IMG/VR virus record: IMGVR_UViG_3300010885_002746
Span: 1-23,901 of that record
Strand: one strand, 5' to 3'
From: a virus
Length of the DNA: 23,901 nucleotides
Shown in pieces: positions 5,264 through 17,850 of the stretch. The position numbers were made by a program, and so were the translations under genes. The notes beneath the pieces are model-generated. The model had not been told where the DNA came from and ran no database searches. It saw nothing but the letters and a program-made list of their open reading frames with translations. Positions within the stretch are counted from its first letter, which is position 1, and the number at the start of each line of letters is the position of its first letter.

Positions 5264-5500
5264 TTAATTATGAGAACTTTGATTTAATATCAATAGAAGC
5301 ATCTGTTTGATCTCAGAAAGTTCTGTCTTTATATTATTTATGTCTTTTGAGTGTTCTTCTATCTGGTTTTGTTTATTTATAACTGAATTTCTTCGGTTTA
5401 AATAATTCTGGTAATCAGATCTATTAGTATTTATAATGGCGCTAGTGCTTATATCTCGCACTAGTCCATCTTTACCTTCAATTTTAACTAGTGTATTCAT
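5264..5500 (-). CDS. Small coiled-coil protein, translationally coupled
   Basis: 78 residues from ATG at 5500. A TTG three codons upstream would give 81 residues, but the ATG forms a TAATG overlap with the stop of the giant gene and begins the more usual MNTLVKIEGKDGLVRDISTS. No Shine-Dalgarno is visible, which fits coupled translation. The first half is a short globular or extended part ending in Ser/Asn/Arg-rich sequence; the second half (QNQIEEHSKDINNIKTELSE and the adjoining IKQMLLLILNQ) has heptad-spaced Ile/Leu residues and should form a parallel coiled coil. Similar small coiled-coil proteins are common beside tail-fibre genes of T4-like phages; the role is unknown, perhaps fibre attachment or trimer assembly. 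Three late-promoter-like motifs lie inside this gene. Confidence 0.8.
   Translation of the reverse strand: MNTLVKIEGKDGLVRDISTSAIINTNRSDYQNYLNRRNSVINKQNQIEEHSKDINNIKTELSEIKQMLLLILNQSSHN
5335..5342 (-). promoter_or_regulatory. Late promoter-like CATAAATA (third of three)
   Basis: The minus strand reads CATAAATA, fitting NATAAATA, 83 bases before the fibre gene start. It is the closest of three such elements in about 100 bases. Confidence 0.35.
5374..5381 (-). promoter_or_regulatory. Late promoter-like TATAAATA (second of three)
   Basis: A second perfect T4-type late box on the minus strand inside the coiled-coil gene, 122 bases before the fibre gene start. Confidence 0.45.
5428..5435 (-). 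promoter_or_regulatory. Late promoter-like TATAAATA (first of three)
   Basis: Perfect match to the T4 late-promoter -10 box on the minus strand, inside the 78-residue coiled-coil gene, 176 bases before the fibre gene at 5252. Confidence 0.4.
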
Positions 5501-8500
5501 TATGCACAAGCGATAACACGAAGATCTTTAACTCTAGGGATTGCTGAGCTATTTGTAGACTTCATAACTAATTTGATCTGAACAGCATCGAATGCTGCTG
5601 CAGCTTCAACTGAGAACGCAGTATCTATAAAACGTTCACTACCATTTTGTACAGTAACAATCGGTTGATCGGCTGCCATTAATTCCCAGTTAGTGGTGTC
5701 AAACGAAGAAGTGCTACCAATAGCAGAAGTTTTATAATAAACATCTACATTAGCCTCAGCAGGAATGCTTGCTGCAAATCTTACACGAATAAAGGTAGAA
5801 GCATTCGCTAGACTAATAACCTTAGTTACATACTTACTGTAACTAGAAGATCCAATTGGAGAAATTTCATCTGTGAAGAATTCTTTCTGCGACAGAGTAA
5901 CTGAAGCACCAGCAGTCTGAGTAGTAAATGCTTTATTTAAAGTCACTGTAGCAGTTGATCCATTATCTGTAACTTTAGTAACTAAGAAAGTACCATCATT
6001 TAAATTACTAGTAGATCCAGCAATTGTCAAGAACTTACCAACTGTAATAGTTTGTAAAACTCCACGTGCAGTAGAATTGGTAGAAGTGATGGTGTTGCCG
6101 CTAAAGGCTATAGTAACATTAGAAGTTAAAAGAGCAACATCATCTAATCCACCAACATTTATATTGTCAGAAGAAGGATTGTTGATTTTGTTACTAATAG
6201 CAATTAAACTAATACGTTGAGTATCTAAGATTGGAGACAATGAATCATTATCAGTCTGCATAGTTACATTGAATGTAGCAGACTTATTACCACTTAAACT
6301 ATTAGTTTCATTGATTTCAGAAGCAACCATCTTTGGAGCATAGAAGTAGTTATTTTCATTCGCCAGTAAATCACCAAAAGTAGAATCTAAACTATATGCG
6401 GTTTGAGTAGAACTATCTACAGATTTACCAGTAGTTGCTTTAATTCCAAATGTAGTCATAGTTTCAGAGAATGTCTGAATCTGAACGTTTGGTTGCAAAG
6501 CATCATACTGTAAGTTTCTAGTGGCACGAACAGTAGAACCTCCAACGTACCCAGTATTAGTAGGCGTAGTAGTTACACTAATGCAATACGAATCAATATC
6601 AACATCACTAATAATATGAGTGTTATAAATTTCAGCTGCTGGAATACCAAAGATTGGTGCAACGTATTTGAATGCAGATCCCGCAGTTAATGTAATAGTA
6701 GCATTAGCTGCGAATGTCGCAGAAGTGTTGCTTGCAATAGTAGCAATCTTACCAATAAAAGAACCAGCTGAATTGTAAATTGCACTTCCCACAGCCAGTT
6801 GTGTAGTAAATGCAGTTGATACACCAGTAAGTGTGGTATTGGCAGTGTTAGTTGCAATAGTTCCAGTACCTGTAGTTCCAGTTAAATTAGTTTGATCTGA
6901 GTTTGTAATAATTGTGCGAGAGCCAACAGGCATACCATGGTCACGTTGGTAAACACGCACTTTAGTTACACCAGTCTTAATTTCAAGTGGATCGATGTCT
7001 AATGACTGATATGGTAAAACATCATTAACAAATTCAACATTGCCTACTACATCAGTATCAAACTTGGCACGATAGATTGTGAACTTTAGATCTTGAGTTT
7101 GGTCAGGTGTCCAAGTAGATGCATTCTGTGATTTAAAGAATACACCCATATATGGTTGTTCAGAAATAGTTCTGTTAGACCCTGGAATCAAATCGCCAAT
7201 CTGAGAAATCCAAACTTTATAGTTATTTGAGTCAGATGAAAGAACGATCGCATACTCTCCATTATTTTGTACGTATACAGGAGAAGGAAACTCAAACGTA
7301 GTTGCAGTATCGTAACTTGGAGTTGGTATACCACCAACTGAAACGATATTAGAAGAAATATTAACATTAACAGGTTTCTTAGAAACTTTAGAGAATGGAA
7401 GAACTAGCTTACCTGGATATCCGTTAACAACTTCACGGATTTCTATGTTGACTGGAACATTATCATCTTTAGATGCAAAGAATATATCAATTTTAGTTAG
7501 GAATGCACCACCCTTTTGTTCAACCAAGAATGTTTGTGCCAGTGGATCATACCATCCAGTATCAGCAACAACACGTTCAGTAGTCTGAACGACAACACGA
7601 TTATCACGTAGTTGCTCTTCAGCTAGTTCAGCATTACGAACAGCATTAACAGTTTGCTGACGTGTTTCAAGTATACCCTCAGCACGGTATAGTTGACGAC
7701 CACGAGAAGTAAAATCACCCTGCGCTGCTACATTGTCAACTAGTTTAAACTCACGGATACCAGTGCGGAAGCGCACAGCGTCAGTATTCGGAATATTAAA
7801 GATTAGGTTTAAGTCTCCACTAAAGTTAGAAACTAGTGAATCGCCTTTTGCTGGAATTGTAATAGAGCCAAAAGTTCCAGTTGCAGCAGAAACAGACCCC
7901 AAAAGTTGTTCTGAAGCAGAGAATGTACCTTTAATGTTTTGTACAAACAACGAATATACATTAGTTGCAGCGTTAAATTCTTTACCGACTACAACAGCAG
8001 TTGCACCAGAAGTAGCACCAGTAAGAACATCACCACGATTCAAACAAACTTGAGAATCCCCATTAATGCGACGTGCTGTCTGAGAAGAAAGACCACCAAC
8101 GTTTGTTGAGTCATCAAACTGCCCAGAACCTGGAGTATATACTAAACGTGCTGAAGCAGTACAGAATGAAGAAATTGTAACATCATCGAAGAATGGATAG
8201 AAACGAGTATTTGGTTTCAATCCTTTAACTTGAACTAGAATGTTTCTGGAACGAATGTATGGGATAACTGCAGTAGAAAGTGTGCGATCTGCAATAACTT
8301 GTCTATCGATACGAGCAACTAATGTAGTCTTAACACCAACACGACTTTGACCGATATTAGTAGCAGTTGTTTCTACCGTAACTTCACGACGTGCACCACC
8401 ACCAGCGTTAAAGCCAGCTATACGGTTAAGTTCTTGACCAGTTGTATTAGTTTGCCACCATGGTCCACCACCCCATGATGGGTTAATGGCAGATAAATTT

Positions 8501-11500
8501 TGACGAGTATTAACTGGAACACCAGTCCATTGATTTTGCCATGCATTCCAAATAGTGCCCAGCACACCAGCACGTTCAGCAATAGCTAGAGTTGCAGAAA
8601 AATTACCTTCTAATTCATTGACAATGTCTGGACGACGATCAACCTCAAACCAATCATCAGACGATGGAGTTAGTGTAACTTGACCCAAGAATGTAAAAAT
8701 AGCGAATGGATTGATGTTTTCTAAACGAGAAGCATACTCTTGTTTAATCAGGGGAACATGCTCAACTACAGGCAGTGTGATAACATCACCATAAAGTTGA
8801 TAGTTAGCACTTTGTCTAGCATTATTAGATGAATTTTTTTCAATCAGATTAATGTTTTGCATGCTATAGAATGGACGCAATTCACCTCTTTCCATATCAA
8901 TGGAACACAAGTAATCTGGAGAAAGAACATCTCCTGTGTTATGACCAGTAAACGAATCAACAATAAAGCCATTCTTGAAACGATCTAAACCACCAGCATC
9001 TACAATATTCAAAGATTCAGTTTGTTGTTCAAGCAACGATAGTGAAGTATAGTATTCTAGATTATCGATACGCTTTTCTAGCTTACCAATATCACGCATA
9101 GTATAACGTTTATTGTCAACCGAGGTAATAGCTACGTTAGTACTAGCGGTGCCAAATGTATAAGGCTCTAGATTTAAATTATAAAGAACCATACCTAAAG
9201 AAGGAGATAGCGGTTCACCAGGATTTAATGAAGAAACTCCATCAATGGAAAAGAAGTTACCAGAAAAATCAACAGCGATTTTAGTCTTGCGTGCTAGGTA
9301 ATAAGTAAAATCTGCACGAACATCAATACCACGTTTTGGTACCAATGATGGTGAAGAACCAGCACCAGTGAATGAACTACCATCATCTGAAATTCTAGGA
9401 CGGAAGTCAATAGAATCTCTTAATGAAACTCCAGCAAATGCAGGAATGTTTTCATAAGCTACGTTTGCTGGGTAAGAATTTACAGTGAAGTAATCCCCTG
9501 TTGCATGTGTGAAGAACTCAAACTGAACACTAATTGGAGCAGTTGGTGATGCAAAAGAAGACTTTAGTAGTATACGTGCTACATCGTAATGTGTATTTCT
9601 TTGACCATTGTCGAATTCATAACGATCAGTAATATCAATCCCATAGTTTCCTGTTGCGGTTGCAAATGTACCTGTATCCATTTTAACACTAATTAAACGG
9701 AAACCATCTGCTTTACCTAGTAGTAATTCAGTTTTTGTTGCTGTAGCTAAGGTAGTGAATGTAACTGTAGAAGAACTTAAAGTTTTTGCTTTTTCAGTTA
9801 GCGTAGAACCTGATTTATTAACAGTTCCAATGACAATAAAATTCTGAGACGCAAAAGAAGAGTTTAGTGTAAATTGTACAGTAGAACTAGAAACTACAAT
9901 TGCACTAGGTAGAACAATAGCACCACCAGTAGTAGCATCATTACTAGCTAAAATATAATTATCAGTTTCAGCAGCAGAAGCAAAAGTTCCGCTAGATGTT
10001 GTGATAGTAAGGGTACAGTTACCACCAGAAGCAGAAGAAGTTGTACCAGTAAAACGCTCCATCACAGTATAAGTGGTATCATTAGTACCATTTGAACTTC
10101 GTACAGATTTTATAGCGTAGTATGGAAAATTGTAGATTAATCCAACGTTTTCGGGTTCGATGACGTTTACTGAAATTTTATCAATAGTTACACCAAGAAC
10201 ATTAATAGCTGGTGCTACCTCAATTCTCGTTTGTGAAACAACTGATGTAACTCGAACACGATTTGTTCCAATATAAATCCAGTCATTAACAGCTAGATCA
10301 GTTTGGAATGAAGTTCCCTGCGCCTGAATGAAAGTTCCAGAACCAACAGTTGAATATGTGTTGGCTGTATATGATGTTGCTGCTCCAACTAATCGGTTAG
10401 ATTGTCCAACAACGTCTGATGTAAAACTTAAATTGGTATCTCCAGAAACTGCAAAGAATAATGATTTTACATCTTCTTCGAAGACAATCTCACTATTCAT
10501 TTTAACATCAAATAAGAATAGTTTATACTGTTCAGTTCCAGAAGCAATAGTACCATTATGCCATTCAATCCCACGGATACGTGCAGTGCCAATCGCAGTT
10601 CCACCAGAAGGTACTGCGCCAGCAGTAGTGATAAAACGATCGTATAGTGTTACATTTACAAAAGAGTTAACTGGTGGAAGATTATTTACATTTGTTACTA
10701 AGATATAGTTACCAACTGTTGCTGGAATAACAGCATTATCGACCTGAACAAATTCTCTTGCTTTATCTACTGTTACATACTCAGTAGCAACTTTTTCAAT
10801 CTCATAACCTTGAACGTATGCTTTACCAGGTTCCATACCAATAGCAAGTTTACTTTCATCACCACCAGTGGCTGGTGTGAATACACCACGATTGTAGAAA
10901 GGTGTTGTGTTATATTCCCACTGAACGCCAGTAGATCCTGGACCATCATATGCTAAGCCAGTACTGTGAGATGGAGTAGTATTAATAGATGTGGCAGAAA
11001 TTTTAGCAACGTATGTATTACCATTGCTAGTAACTACATCACCAATTAAGAATGCAGTATTTGACGTCCATGCGCCACGATTATTATTTCTATGTTCACG
11101 AACATCAATCTTGAATGGGCGAACGGTATAATCACCAGATTCATCAGAAGTTCTACGTGCCAGAGTTTTTTCAAGAATAGAATACTCAGTGGTAGTTGTA
11201 TGTCGTTTGATTTCTCCATCTTCTACACGAAGCAGTTCTACGAAATCTGCATCATCTGTAGAATTTATTGTTTTTGTGCTAAGAGTTAAATCAATATAAT
11301 ATCTGTGCGCACCTGGAGCCGCAAAGTTAAAGCTATTCTGCGCATTATCAAGAAGCATTTCATAACCAGTATCTTCTGGAGTTATTAGCTTTTCTTCAAT
11401 AGAAAGACCTACACGATAATTAGGTGTATTTGTATATTTGTCTAGTGTAATAAGCTGAGATTCAACTAAAACAAAGTGCCCGTTAACATAGTAAACACCA

Positions 11501-12018
11501 CTTTGAATAGTAGCAGTTGATCCTACACCAGTAGAACTACTTGCTGCTGCTTGTAATTTATACGATGTAAGCAAAGTGTCATTTGGTGTTAAAATTTCAC
11601 TATTAGCAAAAACTTTACTAGTATTATCGTTTCCAGAGTTTTTATAACGAACATAAATTGTTGTTGCATCTGTATTAGTAGCAGAAACAACTTTAATGAT
11701 TTTAGCTTGTAAACCATTCGCACCAGTAATATCTTTTCCTTCTAAATTGGCAATATATGTTTCTACTGGAACTCCACCAAAAAGTGGTTGTACTTTAACG
11801 TATGATACATTGGTGTCAATAGAAATCTGTCCAGGAATAACCATTGCACCCTGTTTAAAGATGTGATCCCCATGACGCTTAATTTGATTGTGTAGGATTG
11901 ATTGCAGCTGAGTTAGTTCTCTAGCCTGAACAGCAAAACTTGGACGAAACAAAATTCTATGGAATTTGTTGGTTTCATCAAAATCATCATTGTATGGTTC
12001 TGTATTGAAGTCGATCAT
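5500..12018 (-). CDS. Giant DUF4815-type baseplate/fibre structural protein
   Basis: 2172 residues, the largest gene here. The N-terminal 300 residues match the DUF4815 style: FHRILFRPSFAVQARELTQL (19-38), IKRHGDHIFKQGAMVIPG, then YVQGYEIEKV after an interposed W-T module at 317-369. Two beta modules of the type GT.F...L.VG/ND.IY occur near 558-600 and 1716-1780. A probable trimeric coiled coil lies near 971-1000 (RYTMRDIGKLEKRIDNLEYY), followed by SSDDWFEVDRRPDIV. A jelly-roll-like domain starts at D1491 (DPLAQTFLVEQKGG; NIEIREVVNGYPG; FPSPVYV). The C-terminus (SYSKYVTKVISL; VDVYYKT) is another conserved piece. Relatives are virion proteins of aquatic T4-like phages; the place between gp8-like and fibre genes suggests a rim protein that carries fibres. 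No signal peptide. The stop shares one base with the next ATG. Confidence 0.85.
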   Translation of the reverse strand: MIDFNTEPYNDDFDETNKFHRILFRPSFAVQARELTQLQSILHNQIKRHGDHIFKQGAMVIPGQISIDTNVSYVKVQPLFGGVPVETYIANLEGKDITGANGLQAKIIKVVSATNTDATTIYVRYKNSGNDNTSKVFANSEILTPNDTLLTSYKLQAAASSSTGVGSTATIQSGVYYVNGHFVLVESQLITLDKYTNTPNYRVGLSIEEKLITPEDTGYEMLLDNAQNSFNFAAPGAHRYYIDLTLSTKTINSTDDADFVELLRVEDGEIKRHTTTTEYSILEKTLARRTSDESGDYTVRPFKIDVREHRNNNRGAWTSNTAFLIGDVVTSNGNTYVAKISATSINTTPSHSTGLAYDGPGSTGVQWEYNTTPFYNRGVFTPATGGDESKLAIGMEPGKAYVQGYEIEKVATEYVTVDKAREFVQVDNAVIPATVGNYILVTNVNNLPPVNSFVNVTLYDRFITTAGAVPSGGTAIGTARIRGIEWHNGTIASGTEQYKLFLFDVKMNSEIVFEEDVKSLFFAVSGDTNLSFTSDVVGQSNRLVGAATSYTANTYSTVGSGTFIQAQGTSFQTDLAVNDWIYIGTNRVRVTSVVSQTRIEVAPAINVLGVTIDKISVNVIEPENVGLIYNFPYYAIKSVRSSNGTNDTTYTVMERFTGTTSSASGGNCTLTITTSSGTFASAAETDNYILASNDATTGGAIVLPSAIVVSSSTVQFTLNSSFASQNFIVIGTVNKSGSTLTEKAKTLSSSTVTFTTLATATKTELLLGKADGFRLISVKMDTGTFATATGNYGIDITDRYEFDNGQRNTHYDVARILLKSSFASPTAPISVQFEFFTHATGDYFTVNSYPANVAYENIPAFAGVSLRDSIDFRPRISDDGSSFTGAGSSPSLVPKRGIDVRADFTYYLARKTKIAVDFSGNFFSIDGVSSLNPGEPLSPSLGMVLYNLNLEPYTFGTASTNVAITSVDNKRYTMRDIGKLEKRIDNLEYYTSLSLLEQQTESLNIVDAGGLDRFKNGFIVDSFTGHNTGDVLSPDYLCSIDMERGELRPFYSMQNINLIEKNSSNNARQSANYQLYGDVITLPVVEHVPLIKQEYASRLENINPFAIFTFLGQVTLTPSSDDWFEVDRRPDIVNELEGNFSATLAIAERAGVLGTIWNAWQNQWTGVPVNTRQNLSAINPSWGGGPWWQTNTTGQELNRIAGFNAGGGARREVTVETTATNIGQSRVGVKTTLVARIDRQVIADRTLSTAVIPYIRSRNILVQVKGLKPNTRFYPFFDDVTISSFCTASARLVYTPGSGQFDDSTNVGGLSSQTARRINGDSQVCLNRGDVLTGATSGATAVVVGKEFNAATNVYSLFVQNIKGTFSASEQLLGSVSAATGTFGSITIPAKGDSLVSNFSGDLNLIFNIPNTDAVRFRTGIREFKLVDNVAAQGDFTSRGRQLYRAEGILETRQQTVNAVRNAELAEEQLRDNRVVVQTTERVVADTGWYDPLAQTFLVEQKGGAFLTKIDIFFASKDDNVPVNIEIREVVNGYPGKLVLPFSKVSKKPVNVNISSNIVSVGGIPTPSYDTATTFEFPSPVYVQNNGEYAIVLSSDSNNYKVWISQIGDLIPGSNRTISEQPYMGVFFKSQNASTWTPDQTQDLKFTIYRAKFDTDVVGNVEFVNDVLPYQSLDIDPLEIKTGVTKVRVYQRDHGMPVGSRTIITNSDQTNLTGTTGTGTIATNTANTTLTGVSTAFTTQLAVGSAIYNSAGSFIGKIATIASNTSATFAANATITLTAGSAFKYVAPIFGIPAAEIYNTHIISDVDIDSYCISVTTTPTNTGYVGGSTVRATRNLQYDALQPNVQIQTFSETMTTFGIKATTGKSVDSSTQTAYSLDSTFGDLLANENNYFYAPKMVASEINETNSLSGNKSATFNVTMQTDNDSLSPILDTQRISLIAISNKINNPSSDNINVGGLDDVALLTSNVTIAFSGNTITSTNSTARGVLQTITVGKFLTIAGSTSNLNDGTFLVTKVTDNGSTATVTLNKAFTTQTAGASVTLSQKEFFTDEISPIGSSSYSKYVTKVISLANASTFIRVRFAASIPAEANVDVYYKTSAIGSTSSFDTTNWELMAADQPIVTVQNGSERFIDTAFSVEAAAAFDAVQIKLVMKSTNSSAIPRVKDLRVIACA

Positions 12019-12046
12019 TTGTTCTCTTCTTTTGCTTATCTGTCTT

Positions 12047-12054
12047 TATTTATT
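12047..12054 (-). promoter_or_regulatory. Late promoter-like AATAAATA before the giant DUF4815 gene
   Basis: The minus strand reads AATAAATA in the 42-base gap between the gp8-like gene and the 2172-residue gene. It lies 28 bases before the ATG at 12018, followed by a purine-rich ribosome site (AAGAAGAGAAC). Spacing suits a late promoter with a short leader. Confidence 0.5.
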
Positions 12055-12060
12055 CTAGAT

Positions 12061-15000
12061 TTAGAATCTAATAATAGTTCGTAGCGTTACTGATTGATCT
12101 GTTGTTGGAGTAAATCCAGACTTGTTATCAATAAACATTAGATCACCAGAATATTTATCAACTGATGGAGGAGTTACTGCACTGGCATTAAAGGTATATC
12201 CACCTGCATTAACAAAAGTTGTGCCGATACTTGGACTAAAGTTGTCTAAAGATTGCATCAACGCAGCAACACCTGTATTGGTTACAATTCTAAATCTTTT
12301 ACTGGTTGTAGCCACGGTAACGATACTATCTGCTGGAAAGAAAGTAGTGCTAATGTTTCCAGCAACAACCCAACATGTAGATCCTATAATACCAGTTAAC
12401 GCATACGTATTGTTATATTTTCTTGGATTTTTAATAATTCCAGTTTGACGATAGTCATTGTTTACTACAAACCCCTGATTTTTATCAGCAGATATGTTAC
12501 TGTAAAACATCAAAGTTCTTGCATACAAATCATTCAAAGCATTTTTCCCATGTCCACCATATACAGTGATTATTGGGCGAATTTTAGCTCCATATCCATT
12601 TCCTGTAATTGTAGCAGTCGCCCAACGATATCCAGTTCCATAGTTAGTCATTACAATTTTAATTATCTTTCCATTCTGGATAACTGCAGTTGCAGCTGCT
12701 CCAGTTCCGTCACCAGTAATAACTACTGTTGCACTTGCATATCCATAACCCCCTGAAGTGGGTTTAATCGACATAATTCTACCATCAAGAGTCAATAATT
12801 CAATATTAGCCTGAAGAGTATTAATATCACCTGGAGATAAGTCGGCTGATATTTGAGCACCTGAGCCATCACCAGTAACAGTTAAAATTGCATATGAATA
12901 ACCAATACCACCATCATCAATTTGAATTGATTTTAATTGACCATTTTCAAAATATGGAACAAGTTTAGCTTCTGATTTAATACCACTGAATAGGATTGAT
13001 GCGTTAGATCCAGTTAAAGTTCCAATAGTTACCGCTGGAGATGCTACACTATACCCAGAACCAAACTTAAGAGTTGCAGTTGCAGTTATTGGAAATCCTA
13101 CATATTCAAGAGTTGCAGTCCCATTAGTTGCAGAACCAGAAGTATGAGATGGCGTGGTAGAAGCGTGGGTAGTTCCAGCAGCAGTTACTGTGTATAAACG
13201 ATTGGCAAAAAACAACTGCTGACCTATCGTTACTACAGTTGAAGCAGTCCACTGTGTTCCAATTACAGCTGTAGGTGCACTAAGATAACCAGAACCGCCA
13301 TTAGTAATAACAATTTTAGCAAGACGTCCACCCTGCATAACTGCAACAGCAGTAGCTTGCCCTGAAGTATAAGTAAACGTCTGTGTACCAGTTCCAGCAG
13401 AAGTAAGATTAATTGCAGTTCCTGCAACAGCATTACTATAAGAAGTAGCTAATTTTATTTGAGTTTGCGAAGAACGAATAATATAATAAGTCTGTCCATT
13501 AGAAAGACCTCCAATAGTAGTTGCTCCAATAGTATAAACAACAGTGTCACCAGTTTGTAGCGGATGTACATCAGTTAGTGTAATAACTTCTGTAGAAGTA
13601 TTAACAGAAGAAGCAGATGTGTAAAATGGTGCAGCTATTGTAATTGGCGGTACTGCAGTATATCCATTACCAAACGATGAAATCTCTAGATCTCTTAAGA
13701 TACCATAAAATTTAACAGATGTTATTACACCAGATGGCGCAATAACATCACCAGTTGCAGTAGTTCCAAGGTATTTTAGGGCACATGCTCCATTTTCAGC
13801 AATACCTGTTCTGTGTACTGGTCCAGTGCTTGCTGTTGTTCCAGAAACTGCAACTTCATATATGTTATTATTATGTCGTATTCTTTGTCCCACCAGAAAT
13901 AAGGTAGAAGCCGTCCATGGAGAAGAATTAGTAAATGGAGGACTCACGATAACAGTATCCGTACTTCCATAAGAACTTCCACCATTAGCTAATGTAAATG
14001 CATTAAGGTAAAATGGATCCGATTCCAAGTATCCATCACCTTGAACTGTGATTGCTCCTAATGTATAGTTAGCTCCTGCTTGATCTACTCTTACAGTTTG
14101 AATGTTTCCATTTGAATAAAATTGATTTCTCAATGCAGTTACGACTGGAATAAAATCATCAGTTAAAAATTTATTTCTTAATGCAACTGGTATATTGAAC
14201 ATAAATTTCCACATGTATCCATCTGAAAATGTAATCGGATCAACAGTTGTTCCTATCGGCTTAAATGTAGAAGCTGCATTGTTATTATTATCAAGACATT
14301 TATAAACATTAAACTCATCTGTTACCACGTAGAAATTACAGTCTTCCAATTTCTGCGCACCAGATGCTGACTTTGTAATAACTGATTCAGCATACGCATT
14401 ACCACCAACATTACCAACAGACGCAATATTAACTGATGGCTTTGATGTATAATTAATACCACGTGCGGTCAATGATATATCAATGACTTGTCCATTTGAT
14501 ACACTAGCTTGTGCAGCAGCCCCAGTACCACCACCATCACTAACAACAACATGATTCAATATAGCTGTACCATTAGTTGCCGTGCCAGAAGTATGAGTAG
14601 GTGCTACAGTTCCTGTCGTTCCTGCAGTTGTTACAATATAATATCTACTAGATATTTTTAAGAATGCCCCAGCTAAGACAGCAGTATTTGAAGTCCATGT
14701 AACAGAACCAGCACTACCAATGTAAACAGTTGGGGCTGTCGTATAAGCCGCACCGCCATTAATTAGATCAATCCCCTGCACTTCTTTAGAGTATTGATCG
14801 TCATACATATCATATATTAAACCACTAGTCCAATTGTATCTTGTAACAACAAACGCAACATCTGTTGGTTTGATTTCTTTAAATGTAATAGATTCGTTAC
14901 GACTTTTCAATTCATAATCAAAACTATCAATGGGTGCTGGTGGCGTGAACTCATCTTCCCAGCTAAGAGTTTTACCCAGGAAATAGTAATAACGTGCGCT

Positions 15001-15081
15001 TCTATTTACGATTTCGTCGTAAATACCTTCTGCAATAGAATTATGCAGAATAGTTTTAACCAAGGAAGATTGAGTCGCCAT
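12061..15081 (-). CDS. 8: Baseplate wedge protein gp8-like, enlarged by repeat modules
   Basis: 1006 residues, about three times T4 gp8 (334). Segments that fit the gp8 layout are spread out: YYFLGKTLSWEDEFTPPAP (32-50), DVAFVVTRYNW (74-84), NFYVVTDEFNVYKCLDN (249-265) with SDGYMWKFMFNIP (286-298), then near the C-terminus VYGGHGKNALNDLYAR (840-855), VNNDYRQTGIIKNP (873-886) and the ending SGDLMFIDN...TLRTIIRF. Between them are inserted Gly-rich repeats of the type GGSGYLSAPT, about 8-10 in all, and three W-T modules beginning at W129, W389 and W611. gp8 links neighbouring wedges and contacts gp6, gp7 and gp10 in T4; the inserts presumably project outward. The start has a weak Shine-Dalgarno (AGAAG). 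The gp8 call rests on remembered motif order and should be confirmed by structure search. Confidence 0.82.
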   Translation of the reverse strand: MATQSSLVKTILHNSIAEGIYDEIVNRSARYYYFLGKTLSWEDEFTPPAPIDSFDYELKSRNESITFKEIKPTDVAFVVTRYNWTSGLIYDMYDDQYSKEVQGIDLINGGAAYTTAPTVYIGSAGSVTWTSNTAVLAGAFLKISSRYYIVTTAGTTGTVAPTHTSGTATNGTAILNHVVVSDGGGTGAAAQASVSNGQVIDISLTARGINYTSKPSVNIASVGNVGGNAYAESVITKSASGAQKLEDCNFYVVTDEFNVYKCLDNNNNAASTFKPIGTTVDPITFSDGYMWKFMFNIPVALRNKFLTDDFIPVVTALRNQFYSNGNIQTVRVDQAGANYTLGAITVQGDGYLESDPFYLNAFTLANGGSSYGSTDTVIVSPPFTNSSPWTASTLFLVGQRIRHNNNIYEVAVSGTTASTGPVHRTGIAENGACALKYLGTTATGDVIAPSGVITSVKFYGILRDLEISSFGNGYTAVPPITIAAPFYTSASSVNTSTEVITLTDVHPLQTGDTVVYTIGATTIGGLSNGQTYYIIRSSQTQIKLATSYSNAVAGTAINLTSAGTGTQTFTYTSGQATAVAVMQGGRLAKIVITNGGSGYLSAPTAVIGTQWTASTVVTIGQQLFFANRLYTVTAAGTTHASTTPSHTSGSATNGTATLEYVGFPITATATLKFGSGYSVASPAVTIGTLTGSNASILFSGIKSEAKLVPYFENGQLKSIQIDDGGIGYSYAILTVTGDGSGAQISADLSPGDINTLQANIELLTLDGRIMSIKPTSGGYGYASATVVITGDGTGAAATAVIQNGKIIKIVMTNYGTGYRWATATITGNGYGAKIRPIITVYGGHGKNALNDLYARTLMFYSNISADKNQGFVVNNDYRQTGIIKNPRKYNNTYALTGIIGSTCWVVAGNISTTFFPADSIVTVATTSKRFRIVTNTGVAALMQSLDNFSPSIGTTFVNAGGYTFNASAVTPPSVDKYSGDLMFIDNKSGFTPTTDQSVTLRTIIRF
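14588..14635. repeat. 48-base repeat, copy 2 (partner at 16505-16552)
   Basis: This copy lies in the first W-T module of the gp8-like gene and matches the copy in the 756-residue gene at 47 of 48 bases. A third, diverged relative of the same coding segment begins near 13138 in the same gene. Confidence 0.93.
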
Positions 15082-15095
15082 TTATATGCTTCTAA

Positions 15096-15539
15096 TTAAC
15101 TTACAGTAATAACCCAAGTGATAGCAATAGAATCACCTGCTTGTTTAGTAACAACAGGGAATGTTGTTCTGCATAACATAGTACCAGCAGAAGCTGCATT
15201 AAGAATAGCAGCTTCTGTGATAGCACCAGTACCAGTACCTGCTGGGAATGTAGCTGTTCCAGTAACCGTATTAGTTGACGCTGAAAACGATGATAAAGTT
15301 ACTCTTCCAGCTTCAATACCAAGAACAGTATCGCCTGCAATTGGAGTTGACGAACCAGTACCAATAGCCATATGACTCATGACAGTGGCAGAGGCACTAG
15401 CCATTCGAGATGCAATGTAGTTTTTACCTACAGTAACAACTAAATTATTTACGTCAAACTGCTGCTTAACATTACCATAATAGTCTTTGACTGTTATTGT
15501 TAGTGCACCCTTTACATTAAGTGTTTCATTTAAGTCCAT
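15096..15539 (-). CDS. Small beta-rich structural protein, fibre/collar type
   Basis: 147 residues. The pattern is familiar from many phage virion and fibre proteins: N-terminal strand pair (GALTITVKDYYGNVKQQF), NLVVTVGKNYIASRM, then MAIGTGSSTPIAGDTVLG, and a C-terminal TEAAILNAASAGTMLCRTTF and SIAITWVITVS. I know of no defined biochemical role; such proteins are beta-sandwich pieces of the tail periphery. The ATG is well supported by AAGGAG seven bases upstream. It lies between the gp7-position gene and the gp8-like gene, 14 bases before the latter, so it probably joins or decorates the wedge rim. There is no signal peptide or membrane segment. Confidence 0.8.
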   Translation of the reverse strand: MDLNETLNVKGALTITVKDYYGNVKQQFDVNNLVVTVGKNYIASRMASASATVMSHMAIGTGSSTPIAGDTVLGIEAGRVTLSSFSASTNTVTGTATFPAGTGTGAITEAAILNAASAGTMLCRTTFPVVTKQAGDSIAITWVITVS

Positions 15540-15573
15540 ATATTTTCTCCTTGATTGACGTTGTCTAATTTAT

Positions 15574-15581
15574 TATTTATC
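15574..15581 (-). promoter_or_regulatory. Late promoter-like GATAAATA before the 147-residue gene
   Basis: The minus strand reads GATAAATA, overlapping the TGA stop of the upstream gene. It fits NATAAATA and lies 34 bases before the ATG at 15539, leaving room for a leader with a near-perfect Shine-Dalgarno AAGGAG (15547-15552, 7-base spacer). The 40-base gap is the second largest in the window, which favours a real promoter. Confidence 0.5.
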
Positions 15582-17850
15582 ACAGTTTCGTTACTGTGAT
15601 AGTAGGTGTTTGTTCAGCATAATTACTAGCAAAGTACTCTAGATCTTCATTACCTTCACCAAAGTACACGGTATATGTTGTAAAGTCAAGAACAGATTGG
15701 GATTCTGCGATAGGTTTCACTATCCCTATTGATAGTGACTCTCCTATAGAAACATTTTCTGTTAGATTCTTATTTATATTTAGGTTGTTGGAATCAGACA
15801 AAACCACAGAGTCTGTATATTTATCCCATGCAGTTACATCAATAATCGGTATTGTAAAGTTCTGGATAACACCACTAGAAATATCTGTGTGTGTCCAGAA
15901 AATATTTCCCGTATTGGATGCAATTAGAGTTTCTGGGAATGTACCCTTAGTTACCAATTTAACATCAAACTCTGAAACTACTACCTTAGTATCCTCAGCA
16001 ACGCCAGAATAATCTAATTGACTACCTAAAGGTTTACCTACATGTTTAGTTGAAATACCAGCACCCAAGAAAACTTCATCTTGCTCAAAAACACTAATGA
16101 TCTTCATTAAGAACTCTAAAGAAGATCCTAAATCGAATTCATTTTTAATATCATATTCACCAAACAATGCCACACCTGCTGGATGCACAAGGGTCTTAAC
16201 TGCTGATTTATAAGATTCTAATTTTTCGTTAATTTTCAAAACATATGAATATGGTTGATAATATTTACTATCTTGAATAAAAATAGCATCATCTAAGAAT
16301 CCATCATTATTTTGATAATATCCTGGATACTTGGTTAGTGCATTTAATTCAACTTTAATAATACACACGTTATCTGAATTAACTGTATCTTGAATAGTGC
16401 TAGCATAGAACTGTCGAGTAGCTACTCCAGTATATGTACCATCAAATGCTGGTCCGTATGTTCTAGTATAAGTTAATGAAGCAGTTCCGTTTGATACTGC
16501 TCCTGAAGTATGAGTAGGTGCTACAGTTCCTGTTGTTCCTGCAGTTGTTACAGTGTAAAGTCTATCTGCAAAATAAATTAATGAACCTAAAGTAACATTA
16601 GTAATAGAAGTCCAAAAATCACCACTATCTTGTGAATAATCTGATACGTTAATATAACCCTGCTCTTCGAAAATATTCAAACTCTCAGCAATAACATAGT
16701 TATATCGAGAGCCAATAATTGGTGTCACTGATGCTCCAGTTCCACCACCACCAGTTATTGAAACTGTAGGTAAACTACTATATCCAGAACCAGAATTTGC
16801 AATATTAATTTTTGTTATAGCCCCACCAGAAATTACAACAGAAGCAATAGTAGCTGCTGTTTGGAATCCACCACCAGAAAGTGTAACAGTTGGTGCAGTA
16901 GTAAATCCAGATCCACCACTATTAATTGTAAATCCTGTAATGCTATTAGTTGCTGTACTAATATTTAAAGATGATAGACTTGCTCCAGTGAGTTCTTGAT
17001 CTTCTATAGATGATAGAGAAGATGTAAAATCAGTTTCATATCCTACACCATACTTAACAAACTCAGATGATAAAATACCACCATTAGAATCTACTGATTT
17101 TATCTTTAGTATAGATCCATTACCATCACCATTTCTAATATTGTATAGTTGTCCTACTCTAAAATTTTTACCAGGCTGAAGAATTTCAACTTTAGATGTG
17201 GTTGGTAATATAGTGGCTTCGAACTTTTCATCATATCTGATACGATCATTTATATTAATATTACCAAATATACGTCGATCAATATAAAACTCATATACGT
17301 CTGGAAGAATTTGAACGAATGTATTCACTTCAATCTCAACATCTTGTCGACGATCAACTAAAACACGAATTATTTTATTTTCATTTACTACATCAACTAC
17401 ACGACCAACGATATCTTCAGGGTTTCCATAATTAACTCTAGCGAATATTGAAACATCTTGATTCCACTTACCATCAGATGCTCTTAAGATCTGTTTACCT
17501 GGATAATCAACAGTTACATTTTTATTGAATAGTAATCTAAACAAAAACTTAAATGATAGTTCAGACCCTTTAGCTAAGTGTTGATCTTTTATTCTGGAAA
17601 GATTAAACCTTTCCATATTTTCACTAAATGGTAAATTTGGTGCATTAACTGAAATTTCTTTTTGAAAGAACTCAATAAAATTATCAAGAGTTTTATCCAA
17701 ATCACGGATAGTGAATAAATCTGCTTGTGTAGTTTCTAGATACTCGTAATATGCTTGCAAAAATGCTACGAATGTAGGATAATCGTTCCTGATAAACTCA
17801 GGAAGCTGGCTTGCGACTATACTAGAAATTTTTGGTTTTGTGATGGACAT
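15580..17850 (-). CDS. Baseplate wedge-associated protein in gp7 position, with glycine-repeat and WT modules
   Basis: 756 residues. The family is shared by many aquatic T4-like phages and usually called a virion structural protein. By order (gp25, gp6, this), it occupies the place of T4 gp7 and P2 gpI; homology to gp7 is inferred from position, not visible similarity. Residues 1-190 look like the conserved head: SQLPEFIRNDYPTFVAFLQ, YYEYLE, LAKGSELSFKFLFRLLF. Residues about 309-379 hold two GGSGFTTAPTV / GSGYSSLPTV repeats. Residues 413-461 are a W-T...Y-T-V...G-T-T module also found in the gp8-like neighbour. A conserved segment follows at about 525-567 (DSKYYQPYSYVLKI, HPAGVALFGEY). The C-terminal 170 residues are acidic and beta-rich. 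It overlaps gp6 by one base and ends TGA within a late-promoter-like element. Confidence 0.82.
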   Translation of the reverse strand: MSITKPKISSIVASQLPEFIRNDYPTFVAFLQAYYEYLETTQADLFTIRDLDKTLDNFIEFFQKEISVNAPNLPFSENMERFNLSRIKDQHLAKGSELSFKFLFRLLFNKNVTVDYPGKQILRASDGKWNQDVSIFARVNYGNPEDIVGRVVDVVNENKIIRVLVDRRQDVEIEVNTFVQILPDVYEFYIDRRIFGNININDRIRYDEKFEATILPTTSKVEILQPGKNFRVGQLYNIRNGDGNGSILKIKSVDSNGGILSSEFVKYGVGYETDFTSSLSSIEDQELTGASLSSLNISTATNSITGFTINSGGSGFTTAPTVTLSGGGFQTAATIASVVISGGAITKINIANSGSGYSSLPTVSITGGGGTGASVTPIIGSRYNYVIAESLNIFEEQGYINVSDYSQDSGDFWTSITNVTLGSLIYFADRLYTVTTAGTTGTVAPTHTSGAVSNGTASLTYTRTYGPAFDGTYTGVATRQFYASTIQDTVNSDNVCIIKVELNALTKYPGYYQNNDGFLDDAIFIQDSKYYQPYSYVLKINEKLESYKSAVKTLVHPAGVALFGEYDIKNEFDLGSSLEFLMKIISVFEQDEVFLGAGISTKHVGKPLGSQLDYSGVAEDTKVVVSEFDVKLVTKGTFPETLIASNTGNIFWTHTDISSGVIQNFTIPIIDVTAWDKYTDSVVLSDSNNLNINKNLTENVSIGESLSIGIVKPIAESQSVLDFTTYTVYFGEGNEDLEYFASNYAEQTPTITVTKL
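16505..16552. repeat. 48-base repeat, copy 1 (partner at 14588-14635)
   Basis: This stretch in the 756-residue gene matches 14588-14635 in the gp8-like gene at 47 of 48 bases (single t/c difference). It encodes the segment VTTAGTTGTVAPTHTS in both. Similarity falls off sharply outside it. Both copies are on the same strand about 1.9 kb apart. Confidence 0.93.

Follow-up and report, generated by a model that had tools for sequence, protein, structure and literature searches.

Introduction

Inserts resembling carbohydrate-binding modules (CBMs) have been described in a number of phage virion proteins. Lactococcal phages carry them in Dit as well as in major tail and neck proteins, where they promote host binding or adsorption, and two of them bound hosts (PMC6669499, PMC10688798); in the T4 capsid protein, a chitin-binding-like insertion is reported to bridge neighbouring molecules and to stabilise the capsid (PMC3185693); and a CBM from the neck fibre of A-1(L) did not bind the host (PMC10966104). 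The subject here is a module of some 50 residues, called the W-T module below, of which five copies are spread across three adjacent baseplate genes of a T4-like phage from an aquatic setting, all on the minus strand of the 23.9-kb IMG/VR virus record IMGVR_UViG_3300010885_002746 (the whole of this stretch being referred to as the window). Judged on fold and insertion alone, these copies are very probably plug-in inserts of the CBM5/12 fold, and the canonical sugar-gripping aromatic residues are absent from them.

The likeness to described systems varies from case to case. The module in the tailspike of cyanophage Pam1 (7EEA, residues 494-546) shares with those of the window 39-41% identity, the signature P-T-H-T-S-G...[ND]-G and the lack of a Trp before the Pro, but is a single copy in the tailspike of a short-tailed phage, whereas here the modules are inserts in baseplate wedge proteins. 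The Carin-1 tail nozzle (8CK1, 214-285), also a virion structural protein, shares 30% identity over 54 residues, but as a podovirus nozzle protein it carries one copy, with longer loops. In the case of CBM5/12 domains proper (PF02839; ChiA1 1ED7, ChiB, ChiC and the Vibrio deacetylases) the fold and the N-terminal W...G...[VIL]...Y core are shared, but the W-T modules exceed them in length by several residues, have no Trp in the position of the W-x-P motif, and share a loop and turn with the conserved sequence P-x-H-x-x-G-x(3)-N-G. The T4 capsid domain, too, interrupts a virion scaffold protein and has what may be a related fold, although it belongs to a capsid rather than a baseplate, and the structural similarity is weak (Z-scores of 3.9 and 3.0, root-mean-square deviation (rmsd) 2.6-2.9). 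Lactococcal 936 phages also have CBM inserts in structural proteins of baseplate and tail, namely in evolved Dit and in decorated neck and tail proteins, but these are of a BppA-like type and the carrier is Dit, and in those phages presence of the insert goes with the exopolysaccharide of the host and its effect on adsorption was assayed (PMC6669499, PMC10688798); the carriers here are not Dit but a gp8-like protein (T4 gp8, 1n7z, Z 10.4), a gp7-like wedge protein and a VrlC/DUF4815 protein. A study of pelagimyophages counted gp8 and VrlC among the conserved proteins of the baseplate, and placed carbohydrate-binding domains in other proteins (PMC7029224).

Five copies of one module

The original prediction, made from the letters of the sequence, proposed five copies of the module, and this has been borne out, the copies lying at the following residues:

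14551..14697, minus strand: W-T module, gp8 residues 129-177 (W129, site A; present in 16/60 unique relatives); leave-one-out profile, CBM5/12-type strand pattern in the gp8 model
13768..13917, minus strand: W-T module, gp8 residues 389-438 (W389, site B; 60/60 relatives); leave-one-out profile, match to 7eea inside the gp8 model
13099..13251, minus strand: W-T module, gp8 residues 611-661 (W611, site C; 60/60 relatives); leave-one-out profile, strand pattern in the gp8 model
16465..16614, minus strand: W-T module, residues 413-462 of the 756-residue gp7-like protein (W413); leave-one-out profile, AlphaFold, fold matches, empty site in the related contig L059
10909..11070, minus strand: W-T module of a divergent subtype ending in W, DUF4815/VrlC residues 317-370 (W317); leave-one-out profile, Pfam CBM_5_12, empty site in the VrlC of Mosig and Melnitz

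Homology was tested by building a hidden Markov model (HMM) from four copies and searching with it for the fifth. Each copy was recovered, with independent E-values of 6.5e-16 (W129), 1.5e-16 (W389), 9.6e-19 (W611), 2e-16 (W413) and 6e-8 (W317); the next-best match in the window was a 22-residue fragment at 0.0055, nothing else there being convincing, and the reversed proteins of all loci, used as a control, gave no match below 1e-3. The W317 copy, which had been described as a looser form of the pattern, proves to be a homologous but distinct subtype, with a Trp at its end and a D-G-P-G-S-T-G loop; profile-profile comparison with the other subtype gives a probability of 98.5 and an E-value of 3.6e-15.

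When seven whole records were searched with the profile, BUCT-ZZ01 (in a VrlC-like protein) and S-RIM44 and P-HM2 (in gp7) proved to have convincing modules and Mosig and S-CAM8 weak ones, whereas Melnitz and HTVC008M yielded none. The matches in Mosig include three weak ones lying in tandem at 50046-50477 (minus strand) of MT647606.1, within a single open frame of 1246 residues. A tblastn search of phage records with one 54-residue module gave no match, probably because the query is short and its composition simple. A scan of genome contigs gave at least one match, a Paenibacillus tailspike-like protein being among the matches listed, and related modules occur in head-closure (Hc3 family), major-tail, tail-fibre, baseplate and tailspike protein families.

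Predicted fold

An AlphaFold model of the W413 module, made from a 54-row alignment of modules from the window and related contigs, has a predicted local distance difference test score (pLDDT) of 97. Its best match among solved structures is the receptor-binding domain of the Pam1 tailspike (7EEA; Z 10.8, rmsd 1.0 over all 54 residues), followed by the Carin-1 tail nozzle (8CK1; Z 8.6, rmsd 1.0), while matches to CBM5/12 domains range overall over Z 4.5-6.9 and rmsd 1.7-2.3 (Z 5.5-6.9 for those of the Vibrio chitin-oligosaccharide deacetylases, 4.5-5.5 for ChiC, ChiB and ChiA1). Fibronectin or immunoglobulin (Ig)-like folds were not among the fold matches listed, which in itself is not proof of their absence. 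Sequence profiles give E-values of 4.9e-11 for 7EEA and 2.3e-4 for the chitin-binding domain of ChiA1. Pfam CBM_5_12 (PF02839), taken at E up to 1, matches 18/18 modules of the DUF4815 type and 25 of the 54 others; against its curated cut-off of 26.2 bits, the W317 module alone scores 28.2, the whole protein containing it 21.8 and the carrier of W389 12.2, with no match for the W413 module.

The model of whole gp8, built from 37 sequences, has a lower mean pLDDT of 72, but the three modules within it have the same strand order, at a local pLDDT of 75-93, and the W389 copy matches 7eea with Z 10.1 and rmsd 1.3 over 57 residues. The CBM5/12-like fold that had been suggested from the spacing of aromatic residues is thus strongly supported by structure prediction and solved structures, and in part by Pfam; in the model of gp8, a single fold is common to its three copies.

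Absence of the canonical sugar-binding Trp

The Trp of the W-x-P motif, two residues before the Pro (W687 of ChiA1), which is exposed and binds sugar in ChiA1 and its relatives, is present in all five of the solved CBM5/12 sequences aligned. HMMER places this Trp (in chain 3wx7) against a Thr column of the DUF4815-type profile, and across 160 unique modules the corresponding column contains W in 0/160 and Y or F in 4/160. As the 16 columns following the invariant Tyr are almost aromatic-free (10 aromatics in 2560 cells over the 160 modules), the lack of an aromatic platform does not depend on the exact register of the alignment.

The conserved W and Y of the modules align with invariant or near-invariant columns of CBM5/12, and most likely represent the hydrophobic core of the CBM. 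Two conserved elements, P-x-H-x-[ST]-G and N/D-G, set the phage branch apart, and in the W413 model N-G falls between two strands, where it would form a beta-turn. Of the original prediction of a CBM5/12-like, glycan-binding decoration, then, the fold has stood up, and the glycan-binding half is weakened by the refuting condition set with the prediction itself, since the aromatic platform of CBM5/12 is missing.

Carriers, insertion points and site occupancy

The carriers lie within a T4-like baseplate cluster on the minus strand, comprising a gp5-like hub/lysozyme protein, gp25, gp6, the 756-residue gp7-like wedge protein, a 147-residue protein, gp8 and the 2172-residue VrlC/DUF4815 protein. 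Kyanoviridae, among them Methylophilales phage Melnitz and Pelagibacter phage Mosig, have this order too; of the named relatives compared by protein, the closest is Melnitz gp6 (41% identity). A plasmid collection searched with the gp8 protein contained no relative. The three carriers are:

12061..15081, minus strand: T4 gp8-like baseplate wedge protein, 1006 residues; PHROG 438, core of the model matching T4 gp8 (1n7z, Z 10.4)
15580..17850, minus strand: gp7-like baseplate wedge protein, 756 residues, directly after gp6; Pfam Baseplate_wedge PF23786, order as gp25-gp6-gp7 in P-HM2
5500..12018, minus strand: VrlC/DUF4815 baseplate protein, 2172 residues; Pfam DUF4815 9e-56, annotated VrlC in Mosig

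The claim that the module interrupts otherwise conserved segments holds, and for three of the sites it does so in the cleanest form: sequence is continuous across the W317 site in the VrlC of Mosig and Melnitz and across the W413 site in the gp7-like protein of L059, while W129 is absent from 44 of 60 unique gp8s from related contigs, again leaving clean empty sites. The W389 and W611 sites are empty only in distant, module-free gp8s (those of Mosig, S-CAM8 and BUCT-ZZ01, with 486-525 residues as against 1006 here), which are also without the flanking Gly-rich repeats. Insertions account for about half of the gp8-like protein. In the same 60 gp8s there are six insertion points, two of which (W389 and W611) are filled in every case and W129 in 16, the other three being filled in 4, 1 and 6; some of them contain tandem copies. 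In the gp8 of contig L015 (7998-11102), residues 387-494 comprise a complete module nested in a W389-type module, between GVT and GPVH, and L016 has the uninterrupted counterpart of this host module; this nested copy shows that the module can plug into loops, even its own.

Two further features of gp8 may be recorded here. Gly-rich repeats of the form GGxGYTxAPTVTITGGGGTGA flank every module in the open reading frame at 12061-15081, and together with the modules they roughly double the protein relative to that of Mosig (1006 against 486 residues). An insert of a second kind, at residues 484-573 (13363-13632, minus strand), is predicted to fold in the manner of the FCCH-type domain known from ubiquitin E1 enzymes (Z about 8); the predicted fold also resembles a part of the tail tube protein (9n71, residues 105-179; Z 7.2) of Acinetobacter phage Mystique.

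Age of the copies and selection

Copies at the same site in different phages are on average 53-75% identical, as against 26-50% for copies at different sites in one phage; because same-site copies are the more alike, the copies are taken to be mostly old and kept in place. For the same reason, recent duplication within the genome was rejected as their general origin. Pooled over 125 gp8 pairs, the ratio of non-synonymous to synonymous substitution (dN/dS) is 0.118 for the modules and 0.097 for the rest of gp8, values that are rough as dS is high. Retention is thus long-term, and the identity pattern and purifying selection together argue for modules that are old, site-specific and maintained.

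Within the window, W129 of gp8 (14551-14697) and W413 of the gp7-like protein (16465-16614), both minus strand, are 72% identical in DNA and share an identical 17-residue peptide, VTTAGTTGTVAPTHTSG, unlike the orthologues in close relatives. Local gene conversion is a possible source of this likeness.

Possible functions of the modules

The reading that we prefer, tentatively and with a probability of roughly 0.48, is that the role of the modules is structural and peripheral, bridging the outer baseplate. The modules belong to a phage-virion branch of the CBM5/12 fold whose other members occur in neck and tail proteins, tail nozzles and tailspikes. In gp8 they are inserted into loops that separate beta-strand repeats, and in the gp7-like protein and VrlC each occupies one loop. 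As compact domains, presumably peripheral, sticking out from the wedge proteins they may contact neighbouring wedge subunits or fibres, and so bridge or space the outer baseplate in much the same way as the T4 capsid insertion stabilises its capsid. The preference comes from the fixed occupancy, the ordinary purifying selection and the presence of the module in neck and tail proteins, the carriers including several that are not classic receptor binders (the head-closure Hc3 family, a major tail protein family and the tail nozzle). The lack of the canonical Trp in 160/160 modules and the precedent of the T4 capsid insertion (PMC3185693) also speak for it. There are, nevertheless, points that weigh against it: the Pam1 tailspike has the same module in its receptor-binding part, and beta-helix tailspike-like proteins (L151 and L164) have it close to their C-terminal end; CBM inserts in lactococcal baseplates promote adsorption (PMC10688798, PMC6669499); and the T4 capsid insertion resembles the modules weakly, as the Z-scores of 3.9 and 3.0 given above indicate.

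Several of these points are also the strength of the main rival, adhesion to the host surface, which we consider possible though less probable than bridging. Here the modules would use a polar, non-canonical site on another face for weak, polyvalent binding of host glycans, adding avidity to the baseplate in the manner of the evolved Dit inserts, and the CBM5/12 fold itself, the Pam1 and tailspike-like carriers and the lactococcal precedents from Dit and from major tail and neck proteins, with two that bound hosts (PMC6669499, PMC10688798), are all consistent with it. Set against this, however, the aromatic platform is found in 0/160 modules, two gp8 sites are filled in 60/60 relatives whereas adhesion inserts in Dit vary with the host, modules and carrier differ little in dN/dS, and a CBM of the A-1(L) neck fibre failed to bind its host (PMC10966104).

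A bolder proposal goes beyond bridging as such: a virion-specific branch of CBM5/12 might have lost sugar binding and become a protein-protein coupler, spreading from gene to gene and into itself, and linking the wedge proteins of a baseplate in which part of the T4 architecture has been replaced. This we regard as rather doubtful.

Spread of promiscuous domains under near-neutral conditions has already been proposed for Ig-like domains on phages. Applied here, it would mean that recombination carries a self-folding module with close termini between virion genes while adding little function, and the variable occupancy of six gp8 insertion sites, the tandem and nested copies and the occurrence of the module in many unrelated virion protein families are what it would lead one to expect; but with sites B and C fixed in 60/60 relatives, and the modules under purifying selection, it is unlikely. 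Finally, chance resemblance, or low-complexity sequence without a common fold, might be suggested by the Thr/Gly-rich composition and the failure of the single-module tblastn search, but is refuted by the leave-one-out recovery, the reversed-sequence control, the pLDDT of 97 and the rmsd of 1.0 to a solved domain.

Implications for virion CBM-like domains

CBM-like decorations of virions are often called glycan binders from their fold alone. In the large set of modules considered here (160 unique sequences, with 60 unique gp8 carriers), the residue known to bind sugar is absent and the modules are retained at fixed sites of the baseplate, which counsels caution against annotating such domains as carbohydrate-binding. 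The question of whether they are adhesive or structural thereby becomes directly testable, and the copy-number, tandem and nested states of the module record how, in nature, domains come to be inserted into virion proteins.

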